Source: Rugalucina vietnamica (Eukaryota > Mollusca > Bivalvia > Lucinida > Lucinidae). From it: a DNA stretch of 64,000 bases. The notes under the pieces are model-generated. The model did not search any database, had not been told where the DNA came from, and was given only the letters and a program-made list of their open reading frames with translations. Within the stretch, counting starts at the first letter, position 1. Each line of letters begins with the position of its first letter. The translations under genes were made by a program, and so were the position numbers. Shown in pieces: positions 4,557 to 31,400 of this stretch. The stretch spans positions 64,794,866 through 64,858,865 of the forward strand of contig OZ024871.1 of NCBI GenBank assembly GCA_964017185.1, in the 5' to 3' direction.

Positions 4557-4659
4557 GGTCAACTCGTACTTTTTCCAACTCGTCCCTAGTCAAGTCGTAC
4601 TTTTCGGTCAACTCGTACTAACGTAAACTCGTACCTTTAGTCAACTCGTACTTTTTTCT

Positions 4660-5857: not shown

Positions 5858-5924
5858 CTTAAATAGTAACGGTTAATTGAATATTTTACCTACATTACCA
5901 TGCAAAATGGGAACGACTGGGAAA

Positions 5925-7150
5925 AATTTATGATAAGCGCGATGACTTTGATTTTGACATAGTAAATTTTCCTTTTTTGGATGGTGACGTTCCTCGTCGT
6001 GCTTCTTATGGTGAATACATTTCGCAACTTATTAGGTTTGCTAGAGTCTGCAATCCCCAGGGGGGGGGGGTACTCTCATTTTTTGTGGATACATAGGCGA
6101 GGCCCGAGCTTCTACCCCCAAACCCAAAAAATTACTGAGATTTGCTGACCACCCCCCCCAAAAATACCAGTCCTATCAGGCATACCCCAAAAAATACTTG
6201 AACTTTTAGCTTACCCCAAAAAATTACATGTATTCATCTTTTTTATGCCTATTGATGAAATTTTATCACATCCATATGATCTAAGCTGTTGGTGGGACGT
6301 TAAATCCCAAATCAACCAACCAACAGAACACGTCACAATACAGTTAGTATATGTAGGAACTAGGAAGTAAATACCAAGTTGGATAAAATTTAAAGATTTT
6401 ATTTATTCTCAAAGTGTAAGTCTTACGATGGTTTTGATTCCATTTGATTTGCAATCCAAAAAAACATCATCATGATCAAGCTTCCAAAATTTCACCGAGA
6501 CCAGTCATAAGGCATGGTCGCAAACAAAATTGAATCTTAAGGCCTTGTAAGACATAAGTGTAAGCCACTCTTATCTTTATAGAAATAAAGAGATTTCCCA
6601 AGAAATGTGCAAAACCCAAAAAAATACTTAGAATTATAGATGACCCCAAAAAAATAATTCAGAAAAGGCATGACCCCAAAAAATATCCTTAAAAAGCTCA
6701 CTACCCTAAAAAATAACTAGTTTTTCTGAAAACCCCCAAAAATACGGAAATTCAAAATTTTGACCCCAAAAAAGTCAGCCTCGCCTATGTATACAGAGAA
6801 TTTCAGAGTACCCCCCCCCCCCCCTGGGCTGCAATCATGTTACAGACTTCAACGCTCGAAATAAATGTTTAACGGCAAAACTTCTCCAACAGGGCCATCG
6901 GTATCATAAACTTCGAAAAACCTTTACTAAATTTTATCGTAGACACTATGAATTGATTTCCAAATATAATGTTGGGTTAAAGACGCTTTTAAGTGAGGGC
7001 CTTTCGGAACCTGAATTTTATGGTGACTTGGTTTACAAATTTAAGAAACTTAAAGGAATCAACGATTTTTCTTTTCAGTTCAGAAAAATCATAACACGTT
7101 ACAGACGTATAGGTTATAACTTGAATGTTATGCGACAGTCTGCATGCTAA
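5925..7150 (+). mobile_element. Retroelement remnant: C-terminal part of a reverse-transcriptase polyprotein
   Basis: The translated stretches resemble the end of a reverse-transcriptase ORF common in bivalve and coral genomes (phrases such as IYDKRDDFDFDIVNFPFLDG and EPEFYGDLVYKFKKLKG). I cannot place it confidently among LINE, Penelope-like or other retroelements. It is a broken fossil, carrying only this end of the protein and interrupted by a separate DNA element at 6056-6828. The 3' flank, to about 8700, is AT-rich and holds two copies of a structured repeat. Confidence 0.6.
6056..6828. mobile_element. Non-autonomous TIR transposon with 8-bp target duplication
   Basis: A 773-bp element with ends CCCAGGGGGG...CCCCCCTGGG and about 45-bp inverted repeats that include TACATAGGCGAGG. 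It is flanked by an exact 8-bp duplication CTGCAATC (6048-6055 and 6829-6836). The duplication length suggests the hAT or P group. The inside repeats ACCCCAAAAAAT-like phrases more than ten times and has no transposase. It is inserted in the retroelement remnant, so it is younger than that copy. Confidence 0.85.
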
Positions 7151-7504
7151 GTTTTTAACCCAATCATGGTTGATAACTATGCTGCCTTCTTTAATTGCAC
7201 GCTGGTGGGTCGGGCGTCAGACTCTATGATGGCCCCGACTTAAAGGTATTCATTTTAGTTGGTTGGGGCCGGAGCTTCTTGTCTGTTACTTGGCCCACAG
7301 GGGTCCAACTGGTGTTTTTCTTTTGCTCCGGAGTTAGTAGGTTATTCGGCGCCCAGGGATCTCCATCGTCGGGCAGCTTACTCAATCTGTGAGTCCTGGG
7401 TTTTGATTCATCAGGATGTTTATCATGATTTATTTGTTTGTTCTTGATGATTCATTGACTAGTTAGAGATTCACCACAAGGACCAAATAACTAACTAAAT
7501 GTTA

Positions 7505-7612
7505 TGAACCACTGCAGAAGCTGAGGGTGAGGTTAGGTACCTGTAAAACCGGTTTAAGCCCCCCAGTTATTTTATAACTGACCGTACCAAGGCGGTACTG
7601 CTGTTCTGGTTC
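7505..7612 (+). ncRNA. Candidate structured RNA repeat, copy 1
   Basis: About 108 bp downstream of the reverse-transcriptase remnant. Visible pairing: an outer imperfect stem (7506-7520 with 7598-7612), a 7-bp hairpin CAGTTAT/ATAACTG at 7564-7580, and ACCG/CGGT at 7581-7596 around a CCAAG loop. The single-stranded phrase GGTTAGGTACCTGTAAAACC is identical to copy 2. Likely a 3' functional RNA of the retroelement; no known ribozyme core is seen. Confidence 0.45.
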
Positions 7613-7853
7613 ACACTTATCAAAGTTATTCCAATTACGAGTTTCATGTTGCATGTCTTTGTGACCACCCGAATATAATGGCTGTTCACTTAGCCCTCTG
7701 CATAATGCAGCATTTACTTGTTCTGTCCAAGCTAGCACTGTGACCACCTAATACCTTCAATAGCTGCTCTCTCTGCTTTCCGTTATTCATGTTAAACGTT
7801 GGTATCTATGTTTAGTATTTTCTTAATATGATTTCTTATTTCCTGTTTATCAC

Positions 7854-7963
7854 TGAACCACTACAGAAGCTGAGGGTGAGGTTAGGTACCTGTAAAACCG
7901 GTTTAAGCCCGCCAGTAACTTTGTGTTACTGATCGTTCCAAGTCGATACTTCTGTAGTGGTTC
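7854..7963 (+). ncRNA. Candidate structured RNA repeat, copy 2
   Basis: Starts about 349 bp after copy 1. The outer stem is perfect over 15 bp (GAACCACTACAGAAG with its inverse ending at 7963). The inner hairpins are CAGTAAC/GTTACTG (7913-7931) and ATCG/CGAT (7932-7947). Compared with copy 1, three base pairs have changed on both sides, so pairing is kept while the sequence differs. Confidence 0.45.
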
Positions 7964-9003
7964 TTTTTGTTTTATGTCTTGGTGTTTAAAATTTTTTGTG
8001 CTGTTGGCGCCTTATGTATGTTTTCATATTTTTAGTTAAGTTAAGGTAACTGAGTGGCCACCTATTGGGAAAATAGCTGCTCATTCGGCTTACGATATGT
8101 TTCATGGTATAAAGTACCTGATTGTTAGTTTGGTTTTTCCCACCTCGGTTTTTGGAGTGGGAATCTTTTTCTGATTGCGCCTTTTCCTGATCTTTGCCAA
8201 CTTGTACCTTTTTAAATTATTTTAAATATCAGTTAAAATTATCAGTTTTATGATTTTATCAATTTTAACTATATTTTATTTAGAGATAAATCAATATTAT
8301 TATACCTTAGAAACTAACTTTTAATGTTTTTGCTATAAATTAACTCATTTTAAGGTTGTGTCGTCGAATTATTTTAGCAAATTTATCACTCAGCTGTGTG
8401 CTTTTATCATTTTAACGGTTGTAAACTTGCTTGTGCTGGCATTAAAACTTTTTATTTAGAATTAAACATTTTTTTATATCTTAGAAAACGCACTTTTAAT
8501 TTTTGCAAAACCGTTTTAGCTAGAAACAAATTCATTTTAAAATTGAGCCCTCCAAATTGTTTTATAAAAGTAAGATTATTTGTATGATTACTTGCATAAC
8601 ACATTTTTTAGTTTGACATTTTATTATTATTTGTTTAAACTTCAGTAGAAAATAATGCTAATAAAGCTATTGTTGTACATTTTATGAAGTTGCTGATCTT
8701 TGTAACCAGTTTTGCAAGAATTAAATATATGAATAAATTCTTACTTGCTTTTATGTCTGAAAAACGTAGTCTAACCCCCAACAAAGACTCACTGATTGCT
8801 CTATAATTGGATACAATTATCTACTGTAATTAACTTCAAGATAACAAAAGGAGTGCGATTTGGCAAAAGTACGACTTGACCAATTATAAAGTACGAGATG
8901 ACCAAAGTTAAAAGTACGAGTTGACTAAGGTAAAGTGCGGTACGAGTTTTTTTTAGTACGAGTCGACCACAGTACTAGAAAAAAAAAGTACGAGTTGACC
9001 AGC

Positions 9004-9205: not shown

Positions 9206-12200
9206 ATGAATCTCGCGGGTCAAGCTGCGGACCACCCGTCCGATTTATTGTTCGTTAATTTTAACCAAGACTGCACGTAAGGGCTTCCAGCTTTTGTTAT
9301 GGTCCTACGTAGATTCCATATTTAGAACAAGTTTTGTAACTGTCATTGCTATAAACGTATCGTTTGTCATATTTTGCTTCAAACTAGTTTTATGTAACTG
9401 GTACACCATGTGGCATGGTAGCTCAGTTGGCAGATTGCTCACCGCGGGTGCATGAACAGCAAGACAGAGGGGGTGAGACAGAGGTGCTACTTGTGGGTTT
9501 GAGCATACATGTGATATCTCCCGACTGATCGTGAATCTCCCGATATTCTTGTCCCTTTTCCGCTGACCCGATATAGGAACGAAAAACCCGACGAAGAAAA
9601 AAATCCTATCACGTTTTTCCCCAACCATCAATTTATGTATTTTTACTGAAAAGATCGAGTAGTAGTTTACAGCGCCTAACTAACAGTGAACTTAAAGTAG
9701 AGTGTTTACAGCACCTAACTAACAGTGAACTGACACAGTGTTATCATCATAAGGTGTCAGATTGAGAAGGTGTTATGTGAAGGTTGAGCAATGTTGCGTA
9801 ACATTGCGTCGATAAGTAGCTTTGTTTCCAAATCACTGATCCAAATAATTCCCAAGCAGGTTATTGTATTGTTTGACAAAACATGTTTTCACAATAGTGA
9901 AGTCAGTTAAAACAGTAATCTAATTAATACAGCCTATCTGTCACACTATGGTGGCAAGGAGATAAAAAGAAATTGCTTTTGGTCAAAAAGAATTCACCAC
10001 GAAACTATGATCTATTTTATTTTCTCATCATTAATGATTATCACATACAGAACCAGTTATAAAACAGAACCTTGTTGAATGCCTTAGAAACAATCTTTAT
10101 TCTTCACATCAACAATAAGCAAATATCAATTCAAACAATAAATTTAACACTTTAACATTGTTTGACATTTTATACACAGTATTTTGCACATCAGGAATTT
10201 AAAATTTACATGCAGTACCCAATATTGAGGAAACTATTTACATCCGGATAAATTTGTGTGGTGAAAGCTTTACTGAAACACCATTTAGGTTTGAGCATGC
10301 GCACCAGTAAAATTTACTTTCGTTTTGGATAGCCTGTTGACATGTTGAAATTGTATGAATAAGGGGATGTTTTATCGTTTGTAAAGTGATTTGAAATAAA
10401 TGGAACATAGAATTACACTAAACTTGACTTGATTTAGTCTTTTGAGGTGGGTTGTTATACTTTTCATTTATTTTACCCAGTAAATGCACCATTCATATGC
10501 TTCCCCACCCACATGCACTCCTACAGAAACTGTATCTGTCAATCGCTATATATACATTTTTTTATGTGTGTGTGTGGGGGGGGGGGGGGGTCTTTTTTGC
10601 ATAATATGCAGTGGTCAGGAATAAAATACTAAAGTGTGCATATGATCAGATCATTTTGGAAATTCTGTCCTTAGAATTTATTGCTTTGCCACGTTAAAAT
10701 ATCGTTTAATTTTGTCGATAAAAACCTCCCTATTTCAGACCCAAATCTCCCTACCAAAAAATTCAAATCTCCCTATTTGGCATCCATGATGTAGTATCAC
10801 ATGTATGAGTTTGAGTCTCTGTCATCTGGTCTGCGTCGTCTGGTCGTATGATACTCTTTTTCTGCCTGTAACATTTACATCAGTTGTTCGCAAGAATTAT
10901 TCAATTTCAGCGTGTAGAGTAGAAGCAGTAAGAACACAGACTAAAATACAAATAGAACCAGCCCATACAGCAGCTACACATGATGTAAACCATTTTAGCG
11001 GTGTGTTCCTTTACCGGAATGGACCTGATTACCGGAATGGACTACTGGAATGGACATTTTTATGTGTCCTTGAGTATTTTTCATTTTGTTTTTGAGGACA
11101 GATTGGTCTAGAATATAAACTGATAGTGATTAGTTCGAGAATCATGTGGTTTAAGTGCAGTTAAATTGTGTTCTGTACGGTCGGGTAGGCTAGGCCAGGT
11201 GCTCATATATGCTTATATAGGTCCCTGTCACAGTGCCAGCACATTTTACTTATTTCTACTTCTATTCATCCCTGTGTTTGCTATAGAACAACCACTGGTG
11301 ATCTCGATATATTTCATTCAAAGAAACCTCTGGACAGTGGTCCTACCCTGCACCCCGCCACTGAGCTACCCTAACCACCATGGGAAGTCTATTTTGCTAT
11401 ATACTGAGATGAATTTTATCTTATGCAAACTATTCATATGACTATAGAAGTACAGTACATTTTATGCAGATAAAATACATTTAATGCATGTCCATTCCGG
11501 TAGTCCATTCCGGTAAAGGAACGCATCCCCATTTTAGTCGTTTCATGAGAAAACCAAAAATGTGGTTTCCGATCAGGTTTGACAAAAACTGAGCTGTACA
11601 AGCACAGGAGATGGCTAGAGGCTTAAAATTTTAGATTTAGAAAGTAGAGGAATAGTACCATCCAGTGCTTTAGCTAGAATAAATTAGCAGGGCGCATCAT
11701 CTGTTGCCCTTTTCCAGCGCCCTGTCGTGCCCTTTTCATGCAGTTTGCACCCTGCCTTTTAATTTTGTAAAAAATATCATAAAAACCAGACAAAAATTAA
11801 GAAAGATACAGTTTTTTTTAAGTTTGAAGGCTGGAGTAGCCAACAGTGCAGCTCTAGTTGCAGTCTTATAACTGCATGGTTAACTTCTTCAACCCTTTTT
11901 GGATTGTAAGTATTTCATAGACTAAAAAGTGCCCTTTTTGCTCGTTGCCGCACGCTGAAAGTGCCCTTTTTGCTCGTTGCCGCACGCTGAAAGTGCCCTT
12001 TTTGCTCGTTGCCACTTGCTGAAGGTGCCCTTTTCAAAAACAGTCAGCACTGCCCTTTTCAAATCCTAGCTGGAGCACTGCTATCCTTCTGGCAAAAACA
12101 AAGGCGCTGATCAGTTTCGCAGTTACTGCGAAGCTGATCTGTGTCTCTGTTTTCGTATTAGCGAAATGTTGTTTTTCTCATGACGTGGCTCATTTAGGTA

Positions 12201-13495: not shown

Positions 13496-16400
13496 CAGCA
13501 GCAAAAAACTTCCAGTAAAAACATTAAATAGCCTACAAAACTAGTAAAATCAAACGATTTTCGGCTTTGAGTCGCTAATTCTACTATTGTTTTCCCTGAT
13601 CTATTTATATACATATGCAGTTCCTGGACCTTCTTTACTTACTTCCAGTCCTTAAAGTTTACAAATAAAACTCGTTTGTTACAATGCGGAATGCTTACGT
13701 ATTAAAAAGAATTTGGAGTAATGAAAATATCATAAAGTGTTCTTTTTTCCGACCTTATTTTTGATAAACTAGCAGAAACACTCTTAATTTTACACGTCTA
13801 AGTTATTTACAGTGCATAGGTGTAGTACCAAACATTTTGTTACCCGTCATCATTTTCGGTGATTGAAATAATAGTAACTCTGAAGTGGTATCATCATGTG
13901 AAGGTAATGCATGTAAGCACATTTCCTCCTGAAGGATCCATAGCCTCAGCTCCGAAAGGATCCTGTGTCTGTCTCCTTGAGGAACCGTTACCACCAACAG
14001 AAGTTGTTTTTCACGTTTATTTATCAAGTACAAGTATATTACCACTTTATTCATTTAATTTCAGATTGGCAAATACAATATCTAGGGACAAGAAGTGCTA
14101 AAACGTTTTGATCAATGGCATTTTCCCCAAATATTTAAGGGTATTCGCCTGCCTGTCGTCACAAAATACAGTTCTCGGCCAACATTTTTATCTCGTAAAC
14201 AATTACGAAATAGTTGTGCACATAAAGAAAGCGCTGAGATTGTACCTTGATTACAACGTCATTACGTGCGCACACGTTTTGTACTTATTGTTCACGATAA
14301 AACCTCAGAAAATCGTTTCTCTAAACACAACGACGACGATATTGACGATTTCCTCTGAAAGGAACCATCCCTTCATCCGAAAGGAACCGGCAACACACAT
14401 TTCCTCTGAAAGGATCCGTTTTGGTTACCTACCGTGTTTATATGTTCTCTCGGACAGTTCAAAAGTAACATAAACATTGTATATACTAGAAGAGAAAACC
14501 TCTCTATTTTGAAGTTACGACTAGCTTCCAAAGTGTATTTGTGACTACTTGGAATGTTTAAAAAATGCACATTTCACTTTTGTTATAAATTTGTCGGGGA
14601 CAAATAAAAAGTACTAAGCGTTACTGAAACAAGAACGCTTCAATTTGTTATATTTGATGGTTATACACTATAATACATGAACATGATGAAGATGGCATTA
14701 TGTTAAAATTAACATTTTATTAGTTTTATCATTTAGTATAAATGATCTTGAACTTGAAATGCTTTCTTAAACTATTAACCAGTCTTGTCAGGAAAATGTT
14801 TGGCAATACAGATACAGTTAGAAAAATAATCGCATGAAGTGGTCATTTTTGAGCAAATTTTCTGAAATCGGACTTATATTCCTCACTGATTGAACGAGGC
14901 TTAAACATGTTAAAGCCATGCCAATTTGAACCTTAAAAGTTTGAATCTAAGAATGGGAAGGATAATACTTTCTGAACAATGATTATAGTACTGATGAGAC
15001 CGCTAAGGAAACATTTGCAAGTTTAATTAGTAAATTACCATTTCTGTCATTGACTCATTGCCTTCAGGACTAGTATCAGTAGGGCTCTCATAGTCAGACT
15101 CATATTCTGGATTGCAAATATATCGGGTGCAAAAGGCCTTTTTTCACATAGCTTGAATAACATGTATCTTTGCATTTGAGAGTCATAAAGTGGTTACAAA
15201 CAGGGATAATTTTGAAAAAGGCCATTTGCCAAAATGCTGTGTTATTTTCAAAATGTATAAATGGCCCCTTCATTGGAAAGCATGGGCCATTTTTAAAATG
15301 TTTTTAGCTCACTTGAGCCGAAGTCTCAAAGGGAGCTTATAGGATAGGAAGGCACCCGGCGTCAGTCCGTCGTCGTCGTCCACCATTTTCAAAGATCTTC
15401 TTCTCTGAAACTGCTTGGCCAATCAAAGCCAAATTTTATATGAAGCATCTATAGGAAGGGGGAACCAATGTGTATATAAATAATTTAGGTCACATGACCA
15501 AGATGGCCGCCATGCCCATATATAGTAAAAACCCTTTAAAAATCTTCTTCTCTGGAACCACCTGACCAATTTCTACGAAACTTGGCATGAAGCATCAATG
15601 ACTCAAGTACTACAATGTATATATAAATCATGACCCTGTGATGACCTTGACCTATTTTACGGCAAGGTCAACATAGGTCGCCAATGCATTTCAATGGTGA
15701 AAACTTTTAAAATGCCATTTAAAGTGATTGTCTTTCAGGAAATGGGCAGTAGGACTGAATATTAATGATTCTGAAAAAAATTGGACCCCAGGGGCTCATC
15801 TGCCCCTACCTGGGGGTAATATACATGTATATTTCCATAATATTCAAACTTCTCCTCTGAAACCGCTTGGCCAATCAAAGCCAAATTTTATGTGAAGCAT
15901 CAATAGGAAGGGGTAACCAATGTGTATATAAATAATCTAGGTCACATGACCAAGATGGCCGCCATGCCCATATATGGTAAAAACCCTTAAAAAATCTTCT
16001 TCTCTAGAACCAGTGGACTGATTTCAATGAAACTTGGCATGAAACATCGATGGCTCAAGCACTATAATGTGTATATAAATCATGACCCTGTGATGACCTT
16101 GACCTATTTTACGGCAAGGTCAACATAGGTCACCAATGCATTTGAATGGTGAAAACTTTTAAAATGTCATTTAAAGTGATCGTCTTGCAGGAAATGGGCA
16201 GTAGGACTGAATATTAATGATTCTGAAAAAAATTGGACCCCAGGGGCTCATCTGCCCCCACCCCGGGGCAATATACATGTATATTTCCATAATATTCAAA
16301 CTTCTTCTCCTCTGAAACCGCTTGGCCAATCAAAGCCAAATTTTATGTGAAGCATCAATAGGAAGGGGTAACCAATGTATATATAAATAATCCAGGTCAC

Positions 16401-19400
16401 ATGACTAATATGGCCGCCATGCCCATATATGGTAAAAACCCTTAAAAAATCCTTTTCTCTAGAACTGGTGGACCGATTTCAATGAAACTTGGCATGAAGT
16501 ATTGATGGCTCAAGTACTACAATGTATATATAAATCATGACCCTGAGATGACCTTGACCTATTTTACAGCAAGGTCAGCATAGGTCACCAATGCATTTGA
16601 ATGGAGCAAAACTTTTTAAAAGTCATTTAAAGTGAAAGTCTTGTAGAAAATGGGCAGTAGGACTTAATGATTCTGAAAAAAAATTGACCCCAGGGCTAAT
16701 ATGGCCCCCACCCTGGGGCAATATACATGTATATTGCCATAATATTCAAACATCTACTCCTCTGAAACCCCTTGGCCAATCAAAGCCAAATTTTATGTGA
16801 AGCATCCATAGAATGGGGGAATCAATGTGTATATAAACAATTAGGTCACATGACCAAGATGGCCGCCATGCCCATATACAGTAAAAACCACTCAAAAATA
16901 TTCTTCTCGGAACTGGTGGACCGATTTCAAAGAAACTTGGCATGAAGCAGCAATGGCTTAAGTACTACAATGTGTAAATAAATCATGACCCTGTGGTGAC
17001 CTTGACCTATTTTACGACAAGGTCAACATAGGTCGCCTATGCATTTGAATGGGGAAAACTGTTAAAATATCATTTGAAGGGAAAAGCCAGCAGGAAATTG
17101 GCAAATGGACAGAATATTGATTATTTTGAAAAAAGAAAATGGCCTAAGGGCTTCATCTGCCCCTGCACTGGGTATATATACAAAAATATTCAAACATGTT
17201 TATTGGTATATGCAGCAAATCTCAGGTGAGCGTTTACAGGACCATTGGTCCTCTGGTTTAAGTTTAAGGAGATAGTGGATGATATTTCGAAAATATATTT
17301 TTCGAAATGGTCATTTACGTTTTTAAAGCCAACAGTAATCCTAGCTGTATATTTATCATGAAGTTGCAACAAATTGCAATTACAGAAACGGAGGATATCT
17401 GTATTGTGGAGCGGCTGTTCTCCAGTAGCCTGGTTGCCATAGTGAGTCTCTCGTCACCACGGAAACTGAAGGTGTGCCACTTCAAGAAGGGTACAGAGAT
17501 ATGTAACTACAGCTATTCCAACTCAATACTCGCTGTCAAGCTGAATAGACAGGTTTGTACCATTACGAAAACTTTCCCATGCAATGAACAGATATTATTT
17601 GAGCTTTAAAAATTGCAAATTTTCAGCTGAAAAATTTTGATATTTTTCTTATTTTTGCTCAAAAACATAGATTGTGGGTACACGTTAGAACTGCCTCAGC
17701 GAGGCAGTTCTAACGAGTACCCACAATCTATGTTTTGGAGCAAAAATAAGAAAAATAGGTATACCCCCGCATACCCCAGTGTTTCTATATAAAAGTGGGG
17801 TTTAAGGGGGTATACATGTTTTCCTGATGCAACACGCACAGTATTCCTGGGGCCAGTTGTTCGAAATTAACAATGCTGTTAGTCAATGATTCGTTTAAAT
17901 TTCAAATGGCAATATTACAAATACACTGTAACTTACTTTTTGTTGAAAAAATGTGAAAATTATTTGCAGTGCAAAGGATTCTCACATTTTTTTTTCAACA
18001 AAAAATAACAGTGTGTGCTTTTGAAGTCGACATATAGTTAACAAATTGAAGACTTAACGACAGCATTAAGCTCATGAAGTTTTGAACAACTAGGCCCTGC
18101 TTGTTATGTTTATTGAATTTAATTGAATTCACAGAATATTGAAAACGAGACGATTAGACAACAGATGATCTTGTAACATTCTTACAATTGCTTAGGTAAA
18201 AATTTGTGGTGCATTTGCTAAAGACTGGGTTAAAAAAGGAACAAATCATTAGGAAAACACACCCATGCAATGTAAAGAGATTTTTAAAGTTGTGAAAAAT
18301 GAAAATTTTCCGTAGAAAAAATTGACATTTTTCCTGTTTTTGCTCAAAACATAAATTGTGGGTACACGTCAGAACCGCCTAACGAGTACCCACAATCTAT
18401 GTTTTGGATCAAAAGTAAGAAAATAGGTTTATCTTGGCCAACACCAGATTTTCTGTATAAAATTGGGATTTAAGGGGGTATTTATTTCATGGACATGTTT
18501 TCCTGATGGGCTTTATGTTTTCCTGATGGGTTACAAAACAGAACTAAAAACTCTTAATCATCCTTACGTAAAAACACCACAATGACAGACCGCTTGAGTA
18601 TATTTTTGTTAACATATATATGCAATGTTACAACCTTTTAATCAGACATGATAGTTATCTTATTTGTCAAATTTTAGTTAAATTTTAAATGAGCCTCTTC
18701 ATGAGAAAACCAACAATTTGCATATGCAAAAACAAAGACGCAGATCAGCTGTGTAGTTACTGCACAGCTGATCAGCGCCTTTGTTTTCGCTACACGGATA
18801 GTACAATTACTCTTCTACGTATATACAAAGTTTCAAGCTCCTATCTTTCTGCTGTTACTATACAGACTTGGTCGGAATCCCAAATTGTTGGTTTTCTCAT
18901 GCAGCGGCTCAAATAATGTTTTTTGTCTCCCTTTTCAGCGGTTGATTGTTTGTCTAGAAGAAAGCTTGTATATACACAACATTAGAGATATGAAAGTGCT
19001 ACACACTATAAGAGATACACCCCCTAACCCCCATGGACTTTGTGCCCTCTCTATAAACAATGAAAACTGTTTCTTAGCTTATCCCGGTAGTAATTTAATA
19101 GGAGAAGTTCAAATATTTGATACCATAAACTTGGTAAGTTCTAAGTTTTTTGCATTTGAATCCAAGTATTAGTGAAAATAAATTTTAGCTTTGAACTTGT
19201 TACTGTAAATTCGGAAATATTCGTGAGAACTTAATTTTCGCTAATATTCGCGAATTTGCTGCCTCACGAATTCAAAAATCTCACTAATAAAGAGTTACAA
19301 TAAGCTATATAGACTATAAAAAAAAAAAAAGTTTAAACTTTATTTATTTTACTTCAATTACACAGGAAGCTCTCATTGAACTTATAAACGCATTCTTGAA

Positions 19401-22400
19401 GGCGCGGATTTTGGCGTTATGTGGTCAAACGTGGTGGAGGAAACCGGAGAACCCGGGGAAAACCACCGAACCTGGACGGGCGACCACTACCCTGCCACAT
19501 GCCTTGACCCGGATATAGACTATACAGGTACTGGCTGGCGAATTCAAGAACTCGCTAATAGTTTGGAAATAGAAAGACACGCAAAAATTTCCGAACTTAC
19601 AGTATCAAGAATTTAAGTGCAGAAAAAGTATATTTAAACTGTTTTTGGATTTCTCAATACCTGAAAGTGTTGCATTTGTGTTCAGTGATGTTTAACAAAT
19701 ATAGTAAAAATTACTCATCGGTTCAAACAGAATTGTATATCTAAGATGGCTCTTGGCTCAATTCAAAATGCAATATTCATTACTTTTCGCTTTCAAGGTC
19801 ACACATAAATTTATTAGCTCGCCTGCACGAAGTGCACAGAGCTATTGTTGTCACCTCGGTCGTCCCCGTTTACGTGTACGTTTACATACGCGTCCGCGTC
19901 ACACTTTCGGTTAAAGTTTTTAAAATTGTTATATCTTGATAGTCACTGACCAGAAATCATTCATATTTGGAACATTGCTGCATATGAGGGTCCTCTGTGA
20001 TTTAATGTGAAGGGACCCGTGGGGTCATGCCTGGGGGCTGGGCTAGAGGTCAATATCTAGAACACCTTTGTACAATGCTCAGATGCTGTGCTAGTTTCTC
20101 ATCAACTGTAAAGCCTAGAACTGTCAAACCTTACATAAGGCTTCTCCTTGATGTCCCGACTCGGCACCCACATTGACCTACTGACCTTGACCTATATTTT
20201 ATGCTCCAGTGACTTTGTCATTTTTTAAGCCAACCCTTAATATCTCATCAACTATATTAAAAGCCTACAACCATCAAACCTTGCATATGGCTTCTCCTTG
20301 ATGTCCCGACTTTGCACCCACATTGATCTAGTGACCTTGACCTATATTTCATGCTCTAGTGACTTTGTCATTTTTGAAGCCAACTCTTAATATCTCATCA
20401 ACTATAAAGCCTACAACCATCAAACCTTGCATATGACTTCTCCTCGATGTCCCGACTCGGCACCCACATTGACCTACTGACCTTGACCTATATTTCGTGC
20501 TCTAGTGACTTTGTCATTTTTTAAGCCAACCCTTAATATCTCATCAACTATAAAGCCTACAACCATCAAACCTTGCATATGACTTCTCCTCGATGTCCCG
20601 ACTTTGCACCCACATTGATCTAGTGACCTTGACCTATATTTCGTGCTCTAGTGACTTTGTCATTGTTGAAGCCAACTCTTAATATCTCATCAACTATAAA
20701 GCCTACAACCATCAAACCTTGCATATGACTTCTCCTCGATGTCCCGACTCGGCACCCACATTCACCTAGTGACCTTGACCTATATTTCGTGCTCTAGTGA
20801 CTTTGTGATTTTTTCAAGCCAACCCTTAATATCTCATCAACTATAAAGCCTACAACCATCAAACCTTGCATATAGCTTCTCCTCGATGTCCCGACTTTGC
20901 ACCCACGTTGATCTAGTGACCTTGGCCTATATTTCGTGCTCTAGTGACTTTGTCATTTTTGAAGCCAACTCTTAATATCTCATCAACTATAAAGCCTACA
21001 ACCATCAAACCTTGCATATGACTTCTCCTCGATGTCCCAACTCGGCACCCACATTCACTTAGTGACCTTGACCTATATTTCGTGCTCTAGTGACTTTGTC
21101 ATTTTGGAAGCCAACTCTTAATATCTCATCAACTATAAAGCCTAAAACCATCAAACCTTGCATATGACTTCTCCTCGATGTCGCGACTCGGCACCCACAT
21201 TCACCTAGTGACCTTGACCTATATTTCGTGCTCTAGTGACTTTGTCATTTTTGAAGCCAACCCTTAATATCTCATAAATTATAAAGCCTACAACCATCAA
21301 ACCTTGCATATGGCTTCTCCTCGATGTCCCGACTTTGCACCCACATTGATCTAGTGACCGTGACCTATATTTTGTGCGCTAGTGTCCAGTGATGTAGATA
21401 ATTATTTAATTATTTTTCACAATGCGTACTGTACGCATCAAAATAAATGCACACTGCGTACCGACAATACAACTGTGTACACGTTTTCTGAGGATTCTTA
21501 TTCTATTAGAATCAATTGAACTTATAGATATGTGTACACGTATGGGTAAGACACTTTATTCAAGTAATGAAAATTCAAGTAAATTGGTTAAGAATCCTGT
21601 AATTACATGTTATTCTAATATTTAGGCATGTTAAACCATACTTTTGTCTCCTGCAAAGATAATAAGAGAGAAAAAATTAGGAAAACATGATAAACTGGGC
21701 TGGCTGTAGAACATGGAATACATCAAGTTTTAAATTAAAAACAATGACCAGAACTCGATGCAAAATGCCTATTCAATGAACAAAAGTGACACACTAAACT
21801 TCATAAATAAATCTTTGGTAAAAAATTTGTCTGGCTGAGGAACTGAACGGAGAGCATGTGAAGATACATACTATATCGCATGATATGTTAATACAGAACG
21901 AACAAAAGCTACATTAATATTGTAACTACTTTTCCATTGTTGACAGAGCAGCTAGAAAAAAACTAGTTTAAAATTGTCATTTTGTGATAATTTTAAAGTG
22001 ATAATTTTAAAGATTTTTTTTTATCTGAGTACGCATAAAACCGAAAACTGTCTGCGTACCGCTGATTTTTACTGCATACATGGTACGCACAGGTCCAAAT
22101 TTTTTATGCGTACAGAGCGGAAAATCGTGCGTACATACGCAGTACGCATCGTTATCTATTTCGCTGGTGTCTTTGTCATTTTTTAAGCCAACCCTTAATA
22201 TCTCATCAACTATAAAGCCTACAACCATCAAACCTTGCATATGGCTTCTCCTCGATGTCCCGACTCGGCACCCACATTGACCTAGTAACCTTGACCTATA
22301 TTTCGTGCTATAGTGACTTTGTCATTTTTTGAAGCCAACCCTTAAAATATCTCATCAACTATAAAGCCTACAACCATCAAACCTTGCATATGGCTTCTCG

Positions 22401-25400
22401 ATGTCCCGACTCGGCACCCACATTGACCTACTGACCTTGACCTATATTTCACGCTCCAGTGACTTTGTGATCAATGTGTTCATTGTTAGCTTATGTATGC
22501 AAATAGCTCCCTATACAAAATACATCTACCGGCAAGGTCAAGGTCACGGGTCATAGATTTTAACAAATTTAGTGGCAAAGCACAAGTCAGGCGAGCTACG
22601 CTGTCCTGCGACAGCTCTTATTTTGAAATGAGCCGCCGCATGGGAAAACCAACAATTTGCATAGGCGAAAACAAAGGCGCAGATCAGCTTCGCAGTAACT
22701 GCGAAGCTGATCAGTGCCTTTGTTTTCGCTACACGGATAGTACAATTTCTCTACTTTCTAAACCCAAAATTCCAGCCTCTAACCATCTGTGAGTGTACAG
22801 CTTGGTTTGTGTCAAACCTTGTCGGAACCCAAATTGTTGGTTTTCTCACTCACAGGCCCAATTAAAAATGTTTTACGAGTCTCATCGCAGAGTGTTTGTA
22901 ATCTTTCTGCAGAGAGCGGTGACCATGATTCCTGCACATGATAACCCTCTAGCTGCCATTGCCTTTAACGCTCAAGGCACCAAAATAGCTACTGCTTCAG
23001 AAAAAGTAAGTATCTTAGATATTTATGTCATCAGTATGTTCATATTTGAGCCACTTCATAAGAAAATCAACCTTTTGCATATGCGAAAACAAAGGCGCAG
23101 ATCAGCCTCGCAGTAACATCGAAGCTGATCAGCACCTTTGCTTAAGCTACACGGATAGTACTTTTCCTCTACTTAAAAAAAATTTCCAGCCTCTAGCCAT
23201 CTTCTGTGCTTGTACAGCTGGGTTGATGTCGGACCTGTTTGGAAACCACATTGTTTGTTTGGGTGTCGCGGCTCATTTATTTAAGGCTGCTCATGCATAT
23301 AATCAAAAGTTGTTCAAATTGGTGGCTGTGAGACATAGGGAGTACAGTAAGTCTAGTGTGGGGTACAGTGAGACATTGGTAGGACAGTAAGACTAATGTG
23401 GGGTACAGCGAGACATTGGAAGTACAGTAAGCCTAGTGTGGGGTACAGTGAGATGTTTGGAGGACAGTAAGCCTAGTGTGGGGTACAGTGAGACATTTTG
23501 GGAGTACAGTAAGCCTAGTGTGGGGTACAGTGAGACATTTTGGGAGTACAGTAAGCCTAGTGTGGGGTACAGTGAGACATAGGGAGTACAGTAAGCCTAG
23601 TGTGGGGTACAGTGAGATGTTTGGAATACAGTAAGCCTAGTGTGGGGTACAGTGAGACTTTGGGAGTACAGTTAGCCTAGTGTGGGGTACAGTAAGACAT
23701 TGGGAGGACAGTAAGCCTAGTGTGGGGTACAGTGGGACATTGAGAGTACAGTAAGCCTAGTGTGGGGTACAGTGAGGCATTGGGAGGACAGTAAGCCTAG
23801 TGTTGGGTAGAGTGGGACATTGGGAGGACAGTAAGCCTAGTGTGGGGTACAGTGAGACATTGGGAGTACAGTAAGCCTAGTGTGGGGTACAGTGAAGCAT
23901 TGGGAGAACAGTAAGCCTACTGTGGGTACAGTGAGACATTGGGAGGACAGTAAGCCTAGTGTGGGGTACAGTGAGGCATTGGGAGGACAGTAAGCCTAGT
24001 GTGGGGTACAGTGAGGCATTGGAAGGACAGTAAGCCTAGTGTTGGGTACAGTGAAACATTGGGAGTACAGTAAGCCTAGTGTGGGGTACAGTGAGGCATT
24101 GGAAGGACAGTAAGCCTAGTGTTGGGTACAGTGAGACATTGGGAGTACAGTAAGCCTAGTGTGGGGTACAGTGAGACATTGGGAGGACAGTAAGCCTAGT
24201 GTGGGGTACAGTGAGGCATTGGGAGTACAGTAAGCCTAGTGTGGGGTACAGTGAGGCATTGGAAGGACAGTAAGCCGCCTAGTGTGGGGTACAGTGAGGC
24301 ATTGGGAGTACAGTAAGCCTAGTGTGGGGTACAGTGAGACATTGGGAGTACAGTAAGCCTAGTGTGGGGTACAGTGAGGCATTGGGAGGACAGTAAGCCT
24401 AGTGTGGGGTACAGTGAGGCATTGGGAGAACAGTAAGCCTAGTGTGGGTACAGTGAGACATTGGGAGGACAGTAAGCCTAGTGTGGGGTACAGTGAGGCA
24501 TTGGGAGTACAGTAAGCCTAGTGTGGGGTACAGTGAGGCATTGGAAGGACAGTAAGCCTAGTGTTGGGTACAGTGAGACATTGGGAGTACAGTAAGCCTA
24601 GTGTGGGGTACAGTGAGGCATTGGAAGGACAGTAAGCCTAGTGTTGGGTACAGTGAGACATTGGGAGTACAGTAAGCCTAGTGTGGGGTACAGTGAGACA
24701 TTGGGAGGACAGTAAGCCTAGTGTGGGGTACAGTGAGGCATTGGGAGTACAGTAAGCCTAGTGTGGGGTACAGTGAGGCATTGGAAGGACAGTAAGCCGC
24801 CTAGTGTGGGGTACAGTGAGGCATTGGGAGTACAGTAAGCCTAGTGTGGGGTACAGTGAGACATTGGGAGTACAGTAAGCCTAGTGTGGGGTACAGTGAG
24901 GCATTGGGAGGACAGTAAGCCTAGTGTTGGGTACAGTGGGACATTGGGAGTACAGTAAGCCTAGTGTGGGGTACAGTGAGGCATTGGGAGGACAGTAAGC
25001 ATTATACAGAGATTTATTCAGAAGAAAAAAAATGTAAATTTTATTGGAAAAAAAAAGATTTTTTTTTTAATATTTTCGCTCAAACCATACAATATGGGTA
25101 CATGTTAGAACCGCCTCACCCGGTGAGGCAGTTCTAACGAGTACCCACAATGTATGTTTTGGATCAAAAATTATAAATAAGAAAACCAGGTATACCCCTG
25201 CAAACGTCAGTTTTTCTTTATAAAAGTGGGGTTTAAGGGGGTATGCATTTAACAGACATGTTTTTGTGATGACCTAGTGTGGGATACAAGGCACAGGAAA
25301 AGGGAGACAACCAGTCTGACACAACCATTACTGTTTACATCATCAAAAACAAAATCTGCCAGAACTGAGAAAACAAGGTTATGTTATATGTTGGGTTGAT

Positions 25401-28400
25401 AAAAACTCTGACACTGATTTTGGTTCAAGATAAACAGAGAGAAAAGTTCCTTGTAACTAGTAAGGTTTTCTGTAACTTAAGCAGGTTTTGCATGCTCTTC
25501 ATACAGCAGTGATTGAGAATGTGTCAATCTTTTATACAGGGTACTGTGATACGTGTATTTTCTGTTCCTGATGGACAAAAACTATTTGAATTTAGAAGAG
25601 GTGTAAAAAGGTATGCATTAAGATTTCTTATTTATGCAAATTTTCATATTGTTACACATATGCTAAGTTGTTCCTATTTCTCTTTGAGATAGATTAAGGT
25701 AAATGATCCAGACTTTATTGACTCTTGATCAGGTGCATCACACTTTGCTGTGGCTTTACGAAAACATGCCCATGCAATACACAGAAATTGTTAAGGTTGT
25801 AAAAAATCTAAAATTAAATTTCATTGGAAATTTTTTTATTTTTTTTTTTTTAATTTTTGCTCAAAACATAGATTGTGGGTACATGTTAGAACCGCCTCAG
25901 TGAGGCGGCTCTAACGAGTACCCACAATACATGTATATGTTTTGGAGCGAAAATAAGAAAATAGGTATACCCCTGCATAACCCAGTTTTGCTATATAGAA
26001 GTGGGGTATAGGGGGATATATATTACATGGATATGTTATGCTGATAGTGTTTTATTCATTTTGCAATTGATGTCTTTGATTGAAGAAGGAAATACATTTA
26101 CACACACATGCATGATCATGATCGTCTTGAATAAAGAGAAATCTGAGATTTGAATCTCCTAGCCTTCTTTTATAGCTGACCGGTTTGGTCGTGGTCATAT
26201 GGTCATGGTTTGTGTTGCACTTGGCAAAAATCCCCTTAGGCATGTTTTCTCATGACACGCTTTGCCATTTGTATTTCAGATGTGTTCATATATATTCTCT
26301 GGCATTTAGTTCGGACTCCATGTATTTATCAGCATCTAGTAACACAGAAACAGTCCATGTTTTTAAATTAGAAGTTCATAAAGATAGGTAAGATTTTTGC
26401 TGGGTGGGAATATAGGTACCCGCCCATTAGGGCCGAAAGAAGTAGATGGACTGCTTGTGCCTCCAGGCAAAGCATATACACTACTGACTGGCCATTTGAT
26501 TATTGGTAAACGGCTCTGGTTTGAGCCTGGCCAGGAAAAGTGGTTCAAGTCAATCCATCCATACATTTAAAGCCTTTGTGGCTTACTTGGATGGTTATAT
26601 TTTAAGCACTTGTTGAATGTCATTACATCTTCATTTTGGGTAAAAGTCCCATAAAAAGGAGGCAACATCCCGACATGACCATAGCTCTTGACTGGGACGT
26701 TAAGTGTCACTTCAAACAAACAAACAATCGGCTGAGACACAATCAGGGTTGCCTTTTGTGTTGCACTTGAGGCAAAAAAGTAACCTCTTTGTATTTTCAT
26801 TTTTCTTGGTTTATAATAATGTATGACCTATCAGGTTTATATTCCAGTAATAATTCTTTTGGCTCTCGCGTTTTTCAAATTTCACCATAGTGGGAAATGG
26901 GAATAGTTCAGAAAAGGAGCTTCAAGCCAGTGTTTTGGGCTGCTTAAATAAGATCATACGCAGCCTAGATAAGTCATTGTTCCATGCTGCAGTTAATTTA
27001 ATACAATGTAACATGTGTGGTTGCATATGAAAAATTGAAGGAAACCTTGACTGCAACACACATTTTATTTCTAGGGTGTCTCTTAACATGGGGCTACGGA
27101 CTCTACAGGCCATAGAAAAAATTAATTGTGCTATATCTTCTGTCCTTAATAATTTCTGGAGATATCATTTTGATGGGTTGTACTAGACCACAGTCTGAAA
27201 AACAATCAGGCCATATCATCTCATTTAATAGGAACCTTATCTTTTAATCTCATTTCAAACATAGGGGCTACGGACTCTACATAAAAAATGACTATTTTTT
27301 GAAAATCATTGCTCTTCTCTGAGAAGTTAATTTCAATTTTTGTTGATTCTAATCTGTCATTTGGCTTCATCAAGAAAGACTAAATACAAAATAAAACTAT
27401 TTAAAGCATTTGTCCAATTATTTCAACATGTGAACTGTAAACACCATGAAAATCTTAAAAATACTACAAATGAACAGTTTCACTTCATTCTCCATATTTT
27501 CATTAATTTTAGTCCAAATGCAAAGCCGTAAAAAGTATATTACAGGGGACATATGTCTCCTTGGCTCTAGAGCCATATGCAACATATTTCATTCATGAAC
27601 ATTAAAGCAAACATGTTTACAAAACACCCAAAATAAAAGTGCAACATCATAACATGTGAAAAACATTGTTTTTTTTAGCATATAATCTCTCCCTGACGCA
27701 AAATATTGTACACAATATGGTATCATTATATATCGCCAGAAAGCTTATTATCCCAGTGTTATAATATAATAAAAACATTAGGTATTGGATAATATCCCAC
27801 TGAATTACAGATGCATAACATGACCAAGGTAGTAAAGGCAACCCTGATTGTGTCTCAGCCGAATGTTTAATTATGGAACGCCAAAGCTGTCTGATGGTAA
27901 GGAATAAAAACATTTGATTCATCATCGTCATTATATCCTGCTCACATTTGATTATATGTTGTATAGTGTGCATTATATAATGAGAAAAGTCCATTATATG
28001 TTGGACCAGGTTCTTTATATTATGTAAATTTTCATTATATGATGAGTAAACATCTTTATATTATGGAAGACTTACATTATATGATGAGTAAACATCTTTA
28101 TATTATGGTAGACTTACATTATATGCTGATATAACGACATTATATTATGTATGTTTCTCATAATATGAGCCTTTCCGGATAGAAATCGACCTTATGACAT
28201 AAAAAATCGATTTTCAGTTTTTGATATATCAAGAAAGTAGAGTACTTAATGAGCATTTTGCAATTTATTTTACCTTTCTAACGTAATTATTAAAGATTTT
28301 ATGGGGTTTTGAAACAAGGAGGCATCAACGTAAAGACACTCTTTAATGACGTTGCGTTGTAACGTCGCATTAATTTTTAACGTTTGGACACACAGAAAAC

Positions 28401-31400
28401 ATTGCAAAACATTTTGTTTAAAAATATTCAACTTCATCGAACCAAGGAGTTTAATTTCAGCAAAATTTTTGCTTTTTATTTACATGTCAAGGGAAATCAC
28501 TCAAACATTTCTCCTCTGAAACGCCGAGATAAACGAGTCCCTTAAGTCCCCTGGATAAAAAGTCTCATTTCTGAGTCCAGATAACTTCTTACGATCAGCT
28601 GATGTTCCCGTCGGTGTTCCGTGAATCCTCTCAACACAGATTTAGTGGACCGAGGACAAGAAGTGAAACGGAGAGCGGGTAAGCTATTCGATCTAATGAG
28701 AGACCAGCGGAAAGGATGACATCCGGGTGCCCGCCTCGAAGACGTCGACCGTACGTGGTCATGCCGTCTTTCAACGAAAGACTGGGATCCGTCACTCTGA
28801 CTCAGCATCATTCAAACCGACTACAGCATACACATAACTCAGCGTTCTTCACGTGCCGTGAATCATAAGTGGCGAAACTTCCCAATGCCACGCATGGTGA
28901 AAAACAGAGACAAAATAATGCTTCCCATTGATCCACGCAAGCCACTGATTTTATCTAGAGTTTTATACCGCTTTCTCATATTGCACCTTGCCTATATGTC
29001 AACAACCTGGCAAGTTGGACCACGTTATTGATGGTCCTTTTTCTTAGCAAACTTCGCGGCATATAAACACTTGGTGTGTCCGTCTATTGTGTGTACATGT
29101 CTTTCATTATTCGAGATGTCATATGGACCCATATATAGTTACTCGAAAAACGGAACTCTGCAAAACAAATCCAAAACAACTTGGACTTATACAACCGCTT
29201 ACCAAGTCTTGAAGCGCAGACCAAAAAAAAAATAAATAAAAAAAAAAAAAAAATAAAAAAAAAAAATAAAAATGTGTTTAACGTTATTCCTCTTTTGCAG
29301 CTAGATGTATTAGAAGTATCTGAAACTTGGAAATGTCGTACAACGACGTGCAGCACGTGAATTAATTGAGCCGCCTATGCAATCATGCGATAATGGTACC
29401 TAGTTTTTTTTTTTTTTTAAGTTTGCAAGCGTCAAATTTTATTTTCTCTCCGAAAAATTCCAAAAATTTTCCCAGTTCGTTTCATCAGGAGGATTAGGAA
29501 TTTCTTATGATTTTAATAATGATATTTGATGAAACTGAGAACAAGTTTTCGTGCCTGGTTGCATTTTAGCGTGTTGTTGGTTTTGTTGCATGACAGTCCG
29601 TTCGGCATATTAAGACGCACGCAATAAGAATAATTTGCAGTTTAAGGAGATTTTGAATCCCCCAAAAGAATCATCGGATGTCCCCTAAACCATCTACTTT
29701 CATCTGAGTTACCACTGGGTGGTGCTTCTGAAGATAAGCAGCCGATTTAAAACCTGATTTTGTCACATACATTCTAAAATGTTTCTTATGTCATAGCTGT
29801 AGTCTTCCATCCCAACTGTCAAAGGTCTGGTGATATGTCTGAAACAAGCTTATGAAAACGGACATTGATTCTCGACATGATATCAACTGTTCTCTATGAG
29901 CATAACATAATGGTTAAACGTTTCTGAACTTTTGCGACCCAATAGGCTGTCACCAATAACCTTAATATGGTGAGAATCGGGTATTTGGGTGTCTCGAGTT
30001 ATAGCATACTTAATCATGAATTTGCGTAACCATCAGAATAAAGTTGACACTAACTTAACTCAGTTTTGCCACCACGGATCAGAATTCAACGGCTGATCGT
30101 GGCGTGTGCCAGAAAGGCAGGGAGATTCGTAACGATAAAAAAAAAAAAAAAAATAGAACTGAGATAAGCCACTCGCATTGGAAACCAAGTTGTGGCTTCG
30201 ATCACGATCCTGGCTAGCCTTTTGGACGAAACATTTAATCGAAGACAACGAAAAACTGTTAAATCGGTCGTAAAAACTCAATATTGATCCCTGGCCTATT
30301 CATCCCCAATCTCCCCTACAAGTTTATATATATATATATATATATAGTTTTTTTTTCAAGGGAAATAATTCATCAAATATAGTTATTTATTCTTTATTTT
30401 GACAAAATCCGGATAGATTTACTTGATTTCACTCTTTTATATATATATATTTTTTTTAATAAATTAAGTATTATGGTATAGAAATTACACGCACTAAAGG
30501 TACACTTTCTATAATTTTTGAAGAAATAAAGTTTAAGAGAGAAATGTAAATTCACAAGCCTAATTATTTTAATTTTTATCAATGACGGGTATATATACTT
30601 ACATTTTTTTCGACATGTATCCCGATTGTCATCCCTAATTAAAATTATTTTGTATTTTCTCTCTCTCTCTCCCTCTCTCTCTCTCTCCCTCTCTCTCTCT
30701 CTCTCTTCAATATAGGTATCAAACATGGTTTCCATGCATTAATAGCTGCAAGGCCTCAAAAAAAAAACGAGACAATGTTTATTTCAATAAATAAAGACAA
30801 AAGCAATTAACGCAATTAGGTGTTCATTTAACCGTGGGAGAAGTCAAATACGGCAATGGAAACGCTAAATCCATTGACTATATTGTAGCAGAGGTTCCTA
30901 ACTTCAAAATAAATGCAACATTATACAAATCGGCGAATGCATAGCTTAAATAAAGCAAGAAACGTCGGAACGTATTTGTGGCAGACGACGAACAATTAGC
31001 GCGCAAAATTGCTCTGACGTAACGTCGCGTTCTCGACGTCATTTTCTCACGTTTAACGTCGTATGTCATAAGGTCGATTTCTATCCGGAAAGGCTCATAT
31101 TATGGGCTATTGTCTTTATATGCATCAAGTTGATTATATGGTTTGATAACTTCATTATAAGCTGTTTACTCATCATATAATGTAAGTCTACCATAATTTA
31201 AAGATGTTTACTCATCATATAATGAAAATTTTCATAATATAAAGAACCTGGTACAGCATATAATGGACTTATATAATGCACACTATACACACTATATTAT
31301 TCCTTACCATCAGACAGCTTTTGCATTCCATATTTAATGATATAAAATTTTGTGATATGATCAAAAGATAATTGTAATTCAAATTTTTGTTTAGAGAGCT

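Follow-up and report, generated by a model that had tools for sequence, protein, structure and literature searches.

We find that two tandem copies of a structured RNA, each of ~109 nt, at positions 7505–7612 and 7854–7963 of a 64,000-nucleotide stretch of the Rugalucina vietnamica genome (hereafter the window), have the anatomy of a circularly permuted, type-P5 twister ribozyme, with GAGG, UAA, P2, P3, P4 with a CCAAG loop, P5, and possible pseudoknots. They are twister-like by this anatomy and by covariation; the missing P1 and the low score keep us from filing them under the Rfam twister families. The sequence, the covariation and the presence of these RNAs in two element classes are established. 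We consider it probable, from the sequence, that each copy is a self-cleaving ribozyme working like a type-P5 twister, and that it closes as a dimer. A broader proposal, on which we are evenly divided, is that the copies belong to a twister-like family in which P1 has given way to two palindromes, which would be active only as a homodimer, and which retroelements of two unrelated classes, a Penelope-like element and LTR retrozymes, would have spread within a single animal genome.

Both copies are on the forward strand and start 349 nt apart. In copy 1, the closing stem P5 (7506–7520/7598–7612) is followed by P2′ GGGT and the L1 3′ strand GAGGT (7525–7533, as aligned to the Rfam Twister-P5 consensus), palindrome 1 (AGGTACCT, 7535–7542), a GTAA spacer (7543–7546), palindrome 2 (AACCGGTT, 7547–7554), and UAA, P2 GCCC and the L2 5′ strand CC, part of pseudoknot T2 (7555–7563). 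The remainder, 7564–7596, holds the P3 hairpin (7564–7580) and P4 (ACCG/CGGT), which encloses L4 (TACCAAGG, 7585–7592); the GG of GAGGT can pair with the CC of L4, forming pseudoknot T1. Copy 2 has P5 at 7855–7869/7949–7963, the same palindromes (AGGTACCT at 7884–7891 and AACCGGTT at 7896–7903), and then, within 7904–7947, UAA, P2, L2 GC, the P3 hairpin (7913–7931) and P4 (7932–7935/7944–7947) closing L4 (TTCCAAGT). The predicted cuts are U7555^A7556 and U7904^A7905.

An earlier note, made by inspection of this DNA, had placed two copies here, and they are present as it described. So are the differences it reported between them: CAGTTAT/ATAACTG has become CAGTAAC/GTTACTG through two compensated pairs and ACCG/CGGT has become ATCG/CGAT through one, the CCAAG loop is constant, and the closing stem of copy 2 is a perfect 15 bp; that of copy 1 is paired at 12 of 15 positions. 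A further compensated pair emerges on the assumption that twister pseudoknot T2 forms, C-G in copy 1 and G-U in copy 2, where the Rfam consensus has G-C. The predicted fold of copy 2 (with 2–3 nt of flank) beats 200 of 200 shuffles (z −5.1) and that of copy 1 is modest (z −1.4, with 20 of 200 shuffles equally good). With up to 3 mismatches allowed, a 20-nt core piece matches the window at these two sites only, and has no match in 100 shuffles. There is also a probable old, degenerate copy of the ribozyme 5′ half and its upstream flank at 1390–1471 on the reverse strand (72% identity), in which the palindrome 1 position reads ATGTACAT.

Twister ribozymes cut at a U-A step, and type-P5 twisters are already known. 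We took the type-P5 consensus from Rfam matches in viral contigs, in which a generic type-P5 pattern found eight loci, two of them scoring 55.5 bits as Rfam Twister-P5; these two canonical twisters (L002, 1575–1645, and L004, 4240–4310) have an identical ribozyme stretch. The consensus reads cGCA, GAGgG, hairpin P1, UAA, UGCg, GC, an optional P3, cCG, GUCcCAAGCC and CGg, and the window copies read GGGU, GAGGU, 21 nt, UAA, GCCC, (C or G)C, a P3 hairpin, AYC, GUWCCAAGKC and GRU. The two agree segment by segment in GAGG(G), UAA, a 4-bp P2, a 2-nt L2, and P4 around an 8-nt CAAG loop; the P4 loop has CAAG at the fixed length and differs from the consensus at 2 of 10 positions. The L1 strands GAG and UAA beside P2 are present in all six sequences tabulated, and their positions are nearly invariant (≥90%) in the alignment of 44 genomic sequences described below. 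A canonical P1 helix between GAGgG and UAA was not found in that alignment, with 41.3% of cells paired and no covariation.

At Rfam gathering thresholds there is no match in the window. With a cut-off of E 10, copy 2 matches type-P1 twister at 20.2 bits (E 0.23 for 1,101 bases), and when cut to 7866–7946, a trimming decided after the first match was known, it matches twister-P1 positions 1–49 at 29.4 bits (E 4e-5 for 81 bases); both scores are to be set against a type-P1 gathering score of 67.2 bits. The higher score of the trimmed sequence is expected if the 3′ third of the model sits upstream in the permuted form. Copy 1 has no twister match at E 10, and an Rfam scan of two LTR loci, L099 and L100, gave none at that cut-off either. 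The type-P5 model was reported for no copy, and in copy 2 the type-P1 match could mask it, since one match per clan is shown. Matches of the copies to SECIS_4, JPX, sR10 and hammerheads were judged to be chance. The earlier note could see no hammerhead core, and here too there is no hammerhead match at gathering in the window, and one at chance level (HH9 to copy 1, E 5.9).

We also searched the window with two descriptors, both composed after the copies were known. The first, based on type P5, left free the loop positions that differ between the copies, which favors them; it matches the two copies only, and matched one of 150 first-order Markov windows. The second, less tuned, was drawn from the Rfam type-P5 consensus and allows any two loop mismatches; it too finds only the two copies, and matched three of 200 simulated windows. 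These results bear on whether the RNA could be a self-cleaving ribozyme class of its own, its likeness to twister arising by convergence or very distant descent. The absence of an Rfam gathering match, the lack of any twister match in copy 1, L099 and L100, the missing P1 hairpin and the partly mismatched T2 speak for a separate class; however, GAGG(G), UAA, the L4 sequence and the lengths within the core are those of the type-P5 consensus and the descriptor is rare by chance, and we think a separate class unlikely.

To these we add genomic copies. In the 1.09-Gb, 47-contig genome of the same species, two queries gave 1,624–1,784 first-look candidates, of which 40 were scored for each. Starting from 47 distinct full-length sequences, we aligned 44 distinct ones, leaving out four with large rearrangements (L034 325, L017 1840, L061 2818 and L014 2976) and adding L062 3006, whose row is off by one position from the CTA segment to the GAGGG segment. 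Over the 35 pairs of P5, P2, P3, P4, T1 and T2, 91.8% of cells are paired. Both-side changes occur in 11 of the 35 stem and pseudoknot pairs versus 2.6 in shuffles, and 33 cells are changed on both sides versus 8.8 when shuffled; the rows are related, so that these counts are not of independent events. Pairing is uneven in places: the third pair of P2 is unpaired in 12 of 44 rows, the first and second pairs of T1 each form in 43 and its third in one, and the inner pair of T2 forms in 43 with the outer unpaired in 22. The proposal in the earlier note that selection acts on an RNA fold is thus supported by compensated changes in further copies. That the copies are similar and short might suggest recent duplication only, with a fold arisen by chance, a reading made extremely improbable by the compensated changes seen among 44 distinct sequences and in both element classes.

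Between GAGGUU and UAA, where type-P5 twisters have a P1 hairpin, two 8-mers separated by GUAA stand without gaps in 41 of the 44 rows. Both 8-mers are self-complementary (96.9% of cells paired), and six of eight palindrome pairs are altered on both sides, with 43 such cells versus 12.8 in shuffles; sliding the palindrome partners abolishes this signal. Pattern searches of the genome gave 26 matches (3 for the reversed-pattern control) and 671 matches (control 4), using patterns that fix the center of one palindrome as S or W. We analyzed 80 strings, namely all 26 from the one pattern and 54 of the 671 from the other. Palindrome 1 is perfect in 52 of the 80 listed strings, as eight different sequences (ATGGCCAT, AGAGCTCT, AGGCGCCT, AGGTACCT, AGGATCCT, GGGGCCCC, AGGGCCCT and TGGGCCCA), and when the 33 distinct strings were shuffled 5000 times, eight was never reached; among the 54-of-671 strings alone, the P value for this diversity is 0.011. 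For palindrome 2, the three distinct perfect versions (AACTAGTT, AACCGGTT and AATCGATT) among 25 are no excess over shuffles (P 0.42), although with 74 of 100 cells paired it surpasses every shuffle (maximum 71). The LTR copies contribute a further palindrome, GGGATCCC, so that palindrome 1 is known in at least nine perfect versions.

A palindrome without a loop cannot form a hairpin, and the pairing partner, whether in cis or in trans, must therefore be another copy. By analogy with dimeric hammerheads, the self-complementary stretches suggest that the ribozyme pairs with a second copy. Co-folding, in which dimers were more stable than two monomers, was set aside as it had no shuffled control and swapped the outer stems.

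The palindromes could instead act in DNA, as sites recognized or cut by a dimeric endonuclease belonging to the element, which would insert there into its own copies. In the old copies L010, L077 and L045 the ribozyme is broken at TGTAAAA/CCGG or close to it, which suggests a preferred insertion site and would fit such a role; however, a sequence-specific nuclease has no need of at least nine palindromes with self-complementarity kept, and we regard this explanation as improbable. The genomic 5′ ends cluster just upstream of the predicted cut and not cleanly on it, with an exact fit only in some. In a second set of 30 loci (window included), the leftmost match lies no more than 26 nt upstream of the predicted copy 2 site in six (L057, L063, L065, L066, L070 and L077), although in L077 this reflects an insertion within the copy and not a true 5′ end. 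L051 and L078 have an internal jump to the region of that site, and L029 and L030 have additional pieces starting at TTTAA. Four breaks (L051, L063, L065 and L077) fall on the CCGG that precedes the predicted site by seven bases. We discarded the 5′ ends as traces of cleavage, because only some are exact and insertion into old copies is a rival cause.

The window copies lie within a 5′-truncated retroelement on the forward strand (5923–8212) that ends near 8212 at a T run. Its reverse transcriptase (RT) frame ends in two pieces, 5926–6054 and 6830–7240, divided by another insertion; the C-terminal part (6830–7240) is Penelope-like by eye and has one TAA in the window copy. The insertion, at ~6055–6829, has G/C-run ends, inverted repeats and a repeated CTGCAAT on both flanks. 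Genomic copies share the end near window position 8212 before the T run, and their 5′ truncation varies. A longer copy, L040, has a 640-aa open frame with the Penelope-like motifs YWLPKLHK, GIPMGTNCAP and RYLDDLL (by eye). The RT piece and this 640-aa frame gave no meaningful relative in Pfam, NCBIfam or PDB, an RT protein search of viral contigs gave no relatives, and neither did exact core patterns in collections of viral contigs and genome contigs. Thirty loci of the 40 scored in the first query (window included), which selected for likeness to copy 1, have the ribozyme twice, L017 with a deletion, and in the second set of 30 loci, 20 have a single ribozyme in which the upstream flank of copy 1 is joined to the downstream flank of copy 2 (by eye). 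The suspected association with the 3′ end of this RT family is thus real, the ribozymes lying in the 3′ region of the retroelement in genomic copies. A 31-nt stretch at window positions 58259–58289, which matches the element's 3′ end at 93.5% identity, is perhaps an extremely truncated copy.

A SECIS-like element at 7218–7285 on the forward strand (Rfam SECIS_1, 32.9 bits against a gathering score of 35, E 2e-4 for 1,101 bases) overlaps the end and stop of the RT frame, and L040 has an in-frame TGA (nt 4636–4638) just upstream of the conserved frame. From these two sequence features, a selenoprotein is possible. Naiad elements, reportedly described by Craig and colleagues in 2021, are said to be Penelope-like elements without canonical hammerheads, some of which, in clams, encode selenoproteins. 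The SECIS-like match and the L040 TGA fit that description, in copies that stop short of the N-terminal parts, where a Naiad element would be expected to have a GIY-YIG endonuclease. If the element is of Naiad type, a twister-like RNA would fill the place of the canonical hammerheads that are reportedly missing.

The window has other repeats. A tRNA-like stretch at 9413–9480 (gtagctcagttggcagattgctcaccg) is perhaps a SINE head (by eye), and 42-bp tandem units at 28012–28168 and 31156–31245 are apparently mutual reverse complements and perhaps the ends of one element. Long tandem arrays are at 15388–17134 (452-bp units), 20097–21384 (146-bp units) and 23328–25003 (40-bp units).

Searching with L062, a divergent copy, we obtained 811 first-look candidates and scored 40; 29 of these 40 fall in 13 same-strand pairs and one triple with a period of 1,759 nt. 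By a hand count among the 40 scored, the spacing of LTR-type pairs is 1,144–1,154 or 1,640–1,761 nt. The triple is L099 (G000:C2:59206600–59210330, same genome), with three ribozymes 1,759 nt apart, and in L100, L101 and L102 the spacings are 1,148, 1,154 and 1,744 nt. L099–L102 are small elements holding repeats that have TG...CA ends and the ribozyme inside, together with a primer binding site (PBS; TGGTGGCAGCGGTGGGA) and, before the repeat, a polypurine tract (PPT) (all by eye). Presumably the PBS is complementary to the end of a tRNA-Leu; no tRNA was found in the fetched LTR loci. Stop-free frames, checked in L099 and L100, reach at most 95 and 113 aa, respectively. With direct repeats containing a ribozyme, a PBS and a PPT, and being non-coding as checked in L099 and L100, L099–L102 are LTR retrozymes by their make-up.

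These LTR copies have GGGC/GCCC as P2 and, like canonical twister, GAGGG as L1; T1 comprises three pairs and T2 two, and P5 has a different sequence in which 13 of 15 positions are still paired. Their folding is moderately better than that of shuffles (z −2.7, 3/200, and z −1.7, 11/200). The two hosts also bear on whether the RNA is non-catalytic, a signal for RT recognition, dimerization or packaging conserved as a fold. The position in the 3′ region of a retroelement would suit such a signal, and RNA dimerization is described for other retroelement RNAs. Against this, the RNA is also in LTR elements, which replicate by another type of mechanism and in which a Penelope-type 3′ signal is not expected, and the conserved unpaired letters are those of the twister core; we judge a non-catalytic signal a little less likely even than a separate ribozyme class. 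A ribozyme other than a hammerhead, with a predicted fold that matches a permuted twister, is the best reading. The earlier note is borne out in this, but it named neither twister nor the pseudoknots, the self-complementary stretches or the copies in LTR elements.

We infer cleavage, its site, a dimer as the active form and circular intermediates, and propose the following mechanism. The RNA would enter its fold through the closing stem P5 and then form P2, P3 and P4, with the core locked by two pseudoknots in which the CCAAG loop pairs with the GAGG strand and with the L2 strand. The core would close only when the palindromes of two copies pair with one another. The partners could be the tandem copies in a Penelope-like transcript, the two LTR copies in the transcript of an LTR element, or two RNAs. 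By analogy with twister, the cut would fall between the U and A of UAA. If both copies were cut, a defined unit of 349, ~1,150 or ~1,750 nt would be set free, which may be fit for circularization and reverse transcription, as in hammerhead retrozymes.

Among known systems, the closest is twister type P5 (RF02684), with which these RNAs share the order P5, P2′, GAGG, a closed P1 segment, UAA, P2, L2, P3, P4 with a CAAG loop, and P5′, as well as the core lengths and the possibility of both pseudoknots; they differ in having palindromes for P1, in scoring below all Rfam thresholds, and in their Penelope-like and LTR hosts. Non-circular twister permutations were sought and none was promising (PMC10085705). 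RTE retrotransposons with truncated twisters at their 5′ ends were announced as in preparation in PMC7761336; judged by that announcement, these twisters too lie in retrotransposons, but in another element class and at another end. For twisters in Penelope-like or LTR elements, we found no title among those listed in searches of the open-access literature (PMC), outside which most subscription papers lie.

Hammerheads offer the other comparisons. Penelope-like elements carry tandem minimal hammerheads in their repeat region that may cleave through dimers, and the role of these hammerheads is called unknown in PMC7761336. In an Anolis Penelope-like element, hammerhead mutants were without effect on insertion in vitro (PMC11167929). 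The ribozymes described here are likewise in tandem in a Penelope-like element, although their fold is different and without a hammerhead core. Plant LTR retrozymes are short non-coding LTR elements with one ribozyme per LTR, a PBS and a PPT, and the metazoan retrozymes are said to be without LTR, PBS and PPT (PMC7761336). L099–L102 share the plant plan of a ribozyme in the LTR, a PBS and a PPT, whereas the plant ribozyme is a type III hammerhead and here it is twister-like, in an animal genome. If the proposal is true, a second, unrelated ribozyme fold would occupy the same two niches, again apparently needing a second copy, which would argue that dimer-dependent cutting is itself what such elements need. 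There is precedent for closing as dimers, in hammerheads with a palindromic stem/loop III, two of which complete each other (PMC3088659), and in salamander hammerheads (PMC7229834). As in those ribozymes, a self-complementary closed segment here would allow two copies to complete one another; unlike them, there are two separate palindromes and the core is twister-like.
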